64,000 bases of DNA, taken from contig JABSOM010000003.1 in the NCBI GenBank assembly GCA_013215945.1, positions 186,001 to 250,000 on the forward strand. The letters are read 5' to 3'. The notes under the pieces are model-generated. The model searched no databases. It was not told where the DNA came from and saw only the letters and a list, made by a program, of their open reading frames with translations. Position numbers and translations under genes: made by a program. This document shows positions 35,464 to 36,344 of this stretch, piece by piece (within the stretch, counting starts at the first letter, position 1; the number at the start of each line of letters is the position of its first letter). This DNA comes from Campylobacteraceae bacterium. Its GTDB lineage: Bacteria > Campylobacterota > Campylobacteria > Campylobacterales > Arcobacteraceae.

Positions 35464-35639
35464 TTTGTTTCCTTTTAATTTGTGAAATAATATTAAAAGT
35501 TCTTTTAAAATAAGCTTAAAAGTTATCACTATAATTAATTTGGTAAAAAAAGAACATTAATAGGTGACTTTTATAGCTGTACTTCTTTCTCTTATTTGTA
35601 TATTTTGAAATTATGCTAAAATTCTTTAAAAAGAGAAAT

Positions 35640-36344
35640 ATGCCTGGCCGTTTAGTTATATATGATGATAGACCCTTTAAAGAAGACTGTAAAAATCTAA
35701 TACAATTAGATATGGTACAAAAGCTTACTCCTTCTTACAATATAGCTCCTACTCTTGCTCTTCCCGCCCTTTTAAACAATGGCAACTATTTATACGGACA
35801 TTTTGGTTTTTTACCTTCTTGGGCTAAGGATAGGACTTCTATGAATATAAATGCAAGGAGTGAAAGTATTTTTGAAAAAAAAACCTTTCGTGAAGCTTTT
35901 AAAAGCAGACGTTGTATTATTCCTATTAATGGGTTTTATGAATGGCAAAAAGAAAATAAAGAAAAAATACCTTTTTATGTTTCATCTTCTAAGAATGAGT
36001 ATTTAGCACTTGCTGGTATTTGGGATGAATGGTTTGATAAAGATTTAAATATGAAAATAGTAACACTTGCTTTAATTACCTGTGATGCCAATACCAAACT
36101 AGCTAAAATACATCATAGAATGCCAGTTGTATTAGAAAAACAAGATTTTCAAACATGGTTAAATTCCAGTGATATTCAAGAATTAAATAAAATGTTTAGA
36201 ATATATGAAAGCTCGAATATTAAGATGCAAGAAGTAAGAAAAGAAATAAATAAAGTTTCTTTTAACGAAGTTTCTTGTTTAGATGAAGTAGATAAAAAAG
36301 AAGAAATCAAAGAAGAAAAGATTTCTTCTCTTTTTGATTTATAA
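35640..36344 (+). CDS. SRAP-domain (YedK/HMCES-like) protein lacking Cys2
   Basis: 234 residues from the ATG at 35640, the position matching the family start. The SRAP fold is clear: 'SYNIAPT', 'NARSESI' (N71), 'IIPINGFYEWQ' (E101), 'ALITCDANTKLAKIHHRMPV' (H159). Family members begin M-C-G-R-F and use Cys2 to form a thiazolidine cross-link with abasic sites in single-stranded DNA. Here the start reads M-P-G-R-L, so the key Cys is Pro. An ATG nine codons upstream (35613) is possible but lies in a likely extended -10 box. Its last 6 nt overlap the convergent gene. Confidence 0.85.
   Translation: MPGRLVIYDDRPFKEDCKNLIQLDMVQKLTPSYNIAPTLALPALLNNGNYLYGHFGFLPSWAKDRTSMNINARSESIFEKKTFREAFKSRRCIIPINGFYEWQKENKEKIPFYVSSSKNEYLALAGIWDEWFDKDLNMKIVTLALITCDANTKLAKIHHRMPVVLEKQDFQTWLNSSDIQELNKMFRIYESSNIKMQEVRKEINKVSFNEVSCLDEVDKKEEIKEEKISSLFDL

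Follow-up and report, generated by a model that had tools for sequence, protein, structure and literature searches.

In published accounts of the SRAP family its Cys2 is "absolutely conserved" according to one paper (PMC3765255) and "invariant" according to another (PMC9436759). In E. coli YedK, Glu105 and His160 open the abasic sugar, the N-terminal amine forms a first Schiff base and ring closure by the thiol yields a stable thiazolidine; SRAP proteins are established as protectors of the abasic site (PMC9436759). The YedK mutants C2A and C2S form no stable cross-link and give a trappable Schiff base, and C2A acts as an AP lyase, which the E105Q change slows strongly and H160Q to a lesser degree (PMC9436759). 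Formaldehyde-blocked YedK opens the ring without trapping it, with strand breakage as the outcome, and YedK also reacts with 3'-PUA ends (PMC9436759). An N-terminal proline is the nucleophile of the Fpg/Nei enzymes, among which mycobacterial Nei2 acts on single-stranded DNA as an AP lyase (PMC11323726). No paper on a SRAP protein with proline at residue 2 (Pro2) was found in the open-access literature, which leaves out most subscription journals.

The window analysed here, a stretch of 64,000 nucleotides of contig JABSOM010000003.1 from a member of the Arcobacteraceae (hereafter the family), encodes such a protein (Table 1). The codons ATG CCT GGC CGT at 35640-35651 read M-P-G-R, as the initial annotation of this DNA had it. 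The same annotation listed N71, E101 and H159 as kept active-site residues; this holds for N71 and E101, whereas the conserved histidine is H158, and H159 is its variable neighbour. The protein matches the Pfam SRAP family over residues 2-206 (E 8e-58, 195.8 bits against a curated cut-off of 27.1). This is its only Pfam match, which leaves it outside the Fpg/Nei sequence family, and its gene is the single SRAP gene of the window genome. It has the Asn, Glu and His that define the thiazolidine cross-linkers but lacks their Cys at position 2, as does every readable orthologue in the family. Directly after the initiator Met it carries the Pro characteristic of Fpg/Nei-type enzymes (MPGR, with the start certain in several orthologues). 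Comparison of the gene with its closest orthologue gave a dN of 0.034 and a dS of 0.237 (dN/dS ~0.14); it is therefore under purifying selection.

Table 1. Features of the Pro2 SRAP gene and its 5' flank, in window coordinates
Feature	Position	Strand	Basis
Upstream in-frame start with 9-codon extension MLKFFKKRN, judged unused	35613..35639	+	Orthologues without conserved extension, several with a stop just upstream
AAAAAGAGA, ribosome-binding-like stretch 5' of ATG 35640	35628..35636	+	Shared with orthologues L005 and L018
SRAP-domain protein, 234 aa, M-P-G-R N-terminus	35640..36344	+	Pfam PF02586 and AlphaFold2 model
CCT codon, Pro2 where catalytic Cys2 is expected	35643..35645	+	Conserved in 29/29 family members
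Asn71, equivalent of YedK Asn75	35850..35852	+	Alignments
Glu101, equivalent of YedK Glu105 (general acid/base)	35940..35942	+	Alignments
His158, equivalent of YedK His160 (ring opening)	36111..36113	+	Alignments
C-terminal ISSLFDL, degenerate version of the QLSLF sliding-clamp-like tail	36321..36341	+	Orthologue comparison; motif PMC12309361

Two ways in which Pro2 might prove unreal had been raised at the outset, a sequencing error and an upstream start. The former was excluded because each of the 29 family SRAPs that can be read at the N-terminus has Pro2. As for the latter, the reading frame is indeed open from ATG 35613, and translation from there would place Leu at residue 2 and make the Met-Pro pair internal, but the orthologues argue against its use. 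The N-terminal extension is common to the closest orthologue (L002) and to no other; a stop codon lies immediately 5' of the start in four orthologues (L013, L017, L023 and L027); the codon preceding Pro is ATG, GTG or TTG in all of them; and two orthologues from another genus, L005 and L018, retain the AAAAAGAGA that lies just 5' of ATG 35640 in the window. The start at 35613 was ruled out on the missing conserved extension, the stops and the kept AAAAAGAGA, and we regard an artefact of this kind as very improbable.

In order to see how widely Pro2 occurs, a DNA pattern (MPGR...YN.xP...NARxE) was used alongside family-wide searches, whose loci are the best-scoring ones per search, that is, samples and not censuses. 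An SRAP gene is found in 30 of the 104 family genomes and is absent from 74, and all 29 family SRAPs with a readable N-terminus, that of the window included, carry Pro2. The check proposed in the initial annotation, whether M-P-G-R is fixed in relatives, thus came out in its favour; its framing of Pro2 as an Arcobacteraceae question was sound as to fixation there but too narrow in scope, since Pro2 recurs in unrelated phyla. The pattern, which retrieves 29/29 family SRAPs in hand (the window genome among them), matched at 42 places in a set of 84,980 genomes of bacteria and archaea. Reading of the frames left true Pro2 SRAPs in Arcobacteraceae, Sulfurimonas, Sulfurovum, Opitutia and Rhodobacteraceae, together with lone in-frame sequences from Planctomycetota, Gammaproteobacteria and Anaerolineales (Chloroflexota). 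Six matches (L164, L170, L183, L185, L186 and L197) were dropped as chance or out-of-frame hits, and one of the 42 places is a broken copy.

The residue is distributed differently from group to group. The Sulfurimonas family has an SRAP in 16 of 200 genomes, comprising six Cys2, nine Pro2 and one broken Pro2 form. In the four Rhodobacteraceae genomes in which it was first found, the Pro2 protein is a second SRAP alongside a Cys2 SRAP; this second type occurs in about 41 of 296 genomes, with Pro2 in 30/30 read. The samples from Opitutales and Anaerolineales are mostly Cys2 (29 and 30 read as such, respectively). A phage origin of Pro2 was rejected, the Pro2 pattern having 0 matches in viral contigs versus at least 120 for its Cys2 form; the window protein is less than 60% identical to its phage relatives, and for viruses residue 2 was assessed through the pattern scan. 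Degraded copies were also encountered: a Pro2 SRAP broken by several stops (L219, in the genome of L167) indicates that some lineages have lost the gene, and one Arcobacteraceae SRAP of 191 residues (L029) is without the stretch bearing the catalytic histidine.

The number of origins was addressed with a quick tree of 91 SRAPs in which residues 1-2 were masked. The Campylobacterota Pro2 proteins form one clade (SH-aLRT 99) that adjoins the Campylobacterota Cys2 SRAPs, and those of Rhodobacteraceae form a separate clade (SH-aLRT 99). The Anaerolineales Pro2 sequence nests within Anaerolineales Cys2 proteins (SH-aLRT 93), and the Opitutia Pro2 and Cys2 proteins group together (SH-aLRT 89). The residue-2 label changes five times on this tree, the strongly supported branches of which are, taken alone, compatible with one origin. 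The hypothesis that all Pro2 forms make up one clade was rejected (AU p 0.0039), whereas pairwise unions with the Campylobacterota Pro2 clade were not (Opitutia p 0.13, Rhodobacteraceae p 0.22, the Chloroflexota sequence p 0.058). At least two origins of Pro2 are therefore supported by the sequence data, and the best tree suggests more than two.

Loss of Cys2 has left the remainder of the active site in place. The Asn and Glu are found in 81/81 Pro2 and 215/215 Cys2 SRAPs, and the His in all those that cover the site. The positions Gly3, Arg4, Asn37, Pro40, Arg77, Arg95 and Trp106 (YedK numbers) are retained about equally in Pro2 and Cys2 SRAPs. A compensating substitution common to all Pro2 clades was sought over the same 81 and 215 proteins and none was found; changes such as W61F in Campylobacterota or W67G and P164G in Rhodobacteraceae are specific to their lineages. 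The view with which this work began, that the retained residues argue against simple decay, is strengthened by the fixation in the family, the recurrence in unrelated phyla and the complete active site.

An AlphaFold2 model of the window protein, built from an alignment of 35 Pro2 sequences, reached a mean pLDDT of 88.9 and a pTM of 0.86. All 15 entries listed by VIA-align for this model are SRAP structures (Z 20-28), which identifies the predicted fold as that of SRAP. The model aligns with YedK and HMCES structures from residue 2 onwards, residue 2 falling on residue 2, and scores Z 25.5 against the Schiff-base complex of YedK C2A (8d2m). The best match is BT_1218 (2f20, Z 27.8), a Bacteroides SRAP deposited as a structural-genomics entry, which is also the closest solved structure by sequence (E 2e-29). 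By homology and predicted fold the Pro2 protein thus classes as an SRAP that falls outside the definition of a thiazolidine cross-linker at residue 2.

Many of the Campylobacterota proteins also share a C-terminal motif. A Qxx[LMI]F terminus, usually in the form GQLSLF or RQGTLF, is present in 25/29 Arcobacteraceae and 11/11 Sulfurimonas-type Pro2 proteins (~0.1 expected in shuffles) and in 13/29 Opitutales Cys2 proteins, and is absent in the Rhodobacteraceae, Anaerolineales and viral ones. Sliding-clamp-like QxxLF ends are thus seen in many bacterial SRAPs of both Pro2 and Cys2 type (L005-L030, L161-L194, L265-L293). HMCES carries a PCNA-binding box, and the QxxLF tail of bacterial SRAPs is possibly the counterpart of that clamp tether. 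The bacterial sliding-clamp motif itself is QL[S/D]LF, more generally QxxLF (PMC12309361). The tail of the window protein has no glutamine, so a clamp tether is not claimed for it.

No conserved operon was found around the SRAP gene across the family loci. In three Sulfurimonas loci (L166, L168 and L187) the gene immediately upstream of the Pro2 SRAP gene, 14-17 bases away, codes for a RecD2-like helicase, which suggests an operon of the two genes there; a RecD2 motif was seen in a fourth locus (L194). A tesA-like esterase gene lies near the Pro2 SRAP paralogue in 21/34 Rhodobacteraceae loci (L158, L180, L195 and others), and uvrC adjoins the SRAP gene in two family loci.

From Pro2 as observed in the window protein, its fixation and repeated occurrence, the retained active site and the fold, we infer a chemistry and a cellular role. 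We propose, with a slight leaning in favour, that the window protein is a non-suicidal Pro2 SRAP that would form a transient iminium at abasic sites in single-stranded DNA and be released by beta-elimination or hydrolysis. Met-Pro is a good substrate of methionine aminopeptidase; removal of Met1 by this enzyme would leave an N-terminal proline in the pocket that usually holds Cys2. Glu101 and His158 would then open the abasic sugar as their counterparts do in YedK, and the proline nitrogen would attack C1' to give an iminium, by analogy with YedK C2A and C2S and with Fpg/Nei chemistry. The initial annotation had already raised a Schiff-base-like adduct on the imino N-terminus, a plausible chemistry, with DNA binding in the absence of cross-linking as its alternative; the AP lyase that the published C2A results imply for an SRAP deprived of its thiol goes beyond it. 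Because a stable thiazolidine could not close without a thiol, the adduct would end either by beta-elimination, that is, with a strand cut by AP lyase activity, or by hydrolysis. Given the behaviour of YedK C2A and of Fpg/Nei, Pro2 together with an intact Glu and His leads us to expect a transient reaction with turnover, by which a suicide cross-linker would become a turnover enzyme. Most Arcobacteraceae and Sulfurimonas orthologues could in addition be tethered to the clamp through their C-terminal QxxLF, a tail that is degenerate in the window protein. Whether the adduct would end in cleavage we judge to be about an even matter.

More broadly, Pro2 SRAPs may constitute a recurrently evolved and hitherto unrecognised class of enzymes acting on abasic sites: a suicide cross-linker would have turned into an AP lyase that works through an N-terminal proline, in convergence with Fpg/Nei, and some bacteria, the Rhodobacteraceae, would run both versions. 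We put this forward tentatively, at somewhat short of even chances. Fpg/Nei (PF01149) was detected in 0/104 family genomes, so N-terminal-proline AP chemistry of the Fpg/Nei kind is otherwise absent there; HhH-GPD glycosylases gave three matches in the window genome.

Several considerations weigh against a lyase. The known lyase activity is that of the Ala2 mutant, and Schiff-base trapping is that of the Ala2 and Ser2 mutants; Pro2 is placed beside them by analogy; in the Pro2 pocket a proline iminium may form more slowly, or may be hydrolysed instead of undergoing elimination. A cut at a fork, where the abasic site is single-stranded, would do harm, and this favours a role in protection or one that involves no cutting. 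The gene is also dispensable, given the family genomes without it and the occurrence of decayed copies. The protein could instead be a reversible shield or sensor that binds abasic single-stranded DNA non-covalently or through a short-lived, hydrolysed iminium, protects the site and passes it to a repair partner, clamp-tethered where the tail is intact. Such a role would accord with the protection established for SRAP, with the wholly kept DNA-binding and active-site core and with the clamp-like tail of 36/40 Campylobacterota Pro2 proteins. The strict retention of the Glu and His of ring opening and Schiff-base chemistry nevertheless points to catalysis, and the strand breakage given by formaldehyde-blocked YedK likewise weighs against a shield; we hold this reading to be a minority possibility, at perhaps one chance in a handful.

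Two further readings seem to us unlikely, and to a similar degree. The substrate might be not the intact abasic site but the 3'-unsaturated-aldehyde ends left by Nth-type lyases, processed by delta-elimination as in Fpg/Nei. The reactivity of YedK with such ends fits this idea, as does a family without Fpg/Nei in which the window genome keeps HhH-GPD glycosylases able to make them, but His158 is kept throughout although it would be needed mainly for ring opening and not for 3'-PUA. The SRAP scaffold might otherwise have taken up another task and abandoned abasic-site chemistry, or be decaying: the known cross-link requires Cys2, one Sulfurimonas-family genome holds a broken Pro2 copy and one Arcobacteraceae copy has lost its His region. 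Set against this are the repeated choice of proline at residue 2, the retention of the Asn, Glu and His and the DNA-binding core, and the low dN/dS.

Cys2 underlies the function that SRAP is accepted to have, and a natural replacement that is both fixed and recurrent, at times with a Cys2 paralogue beside the Pro2 form, suggests a second SRAP mode. If the non-suicidal reading is true, it would bear on how single-stranded DNA with abasic sites is handled in bacteria without Fpg/Nei. The natural Pro2 proteins offer material for separating cross-linking, protection and cutting of such sites. With E. coli YedK and human HMCES the window protein shares the full-length fold (VIA Z about 24-26), the MxGR N-terminus, the active-site Asn/Glu/His and the conserved DNA-binding core; it differs from them in the exchange of Cys2 for Pro, which on sequence grounds should preclude a thiazolidine cross-link, and most Campylobacterota Pro2 members add the QxxLF tail. 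Like the laboratory mutants C2A and C2S of YedK it is an SRAP minus the Cys2 thiol, but it owes this to a change that arose in nature, repeatedly, and became fixed, and its residue 2 is a secondary amine, proline. With Fpg (MutM) and Nei it has in common the Pro after the initiator Met, which in those enzymes is exposed once the Met is removed and serves as the Schiff-base nucleophile of the AP lyase (PMC11323726); they belong to an unrelated sequence family, and any likeness in chemistry would be convergent.
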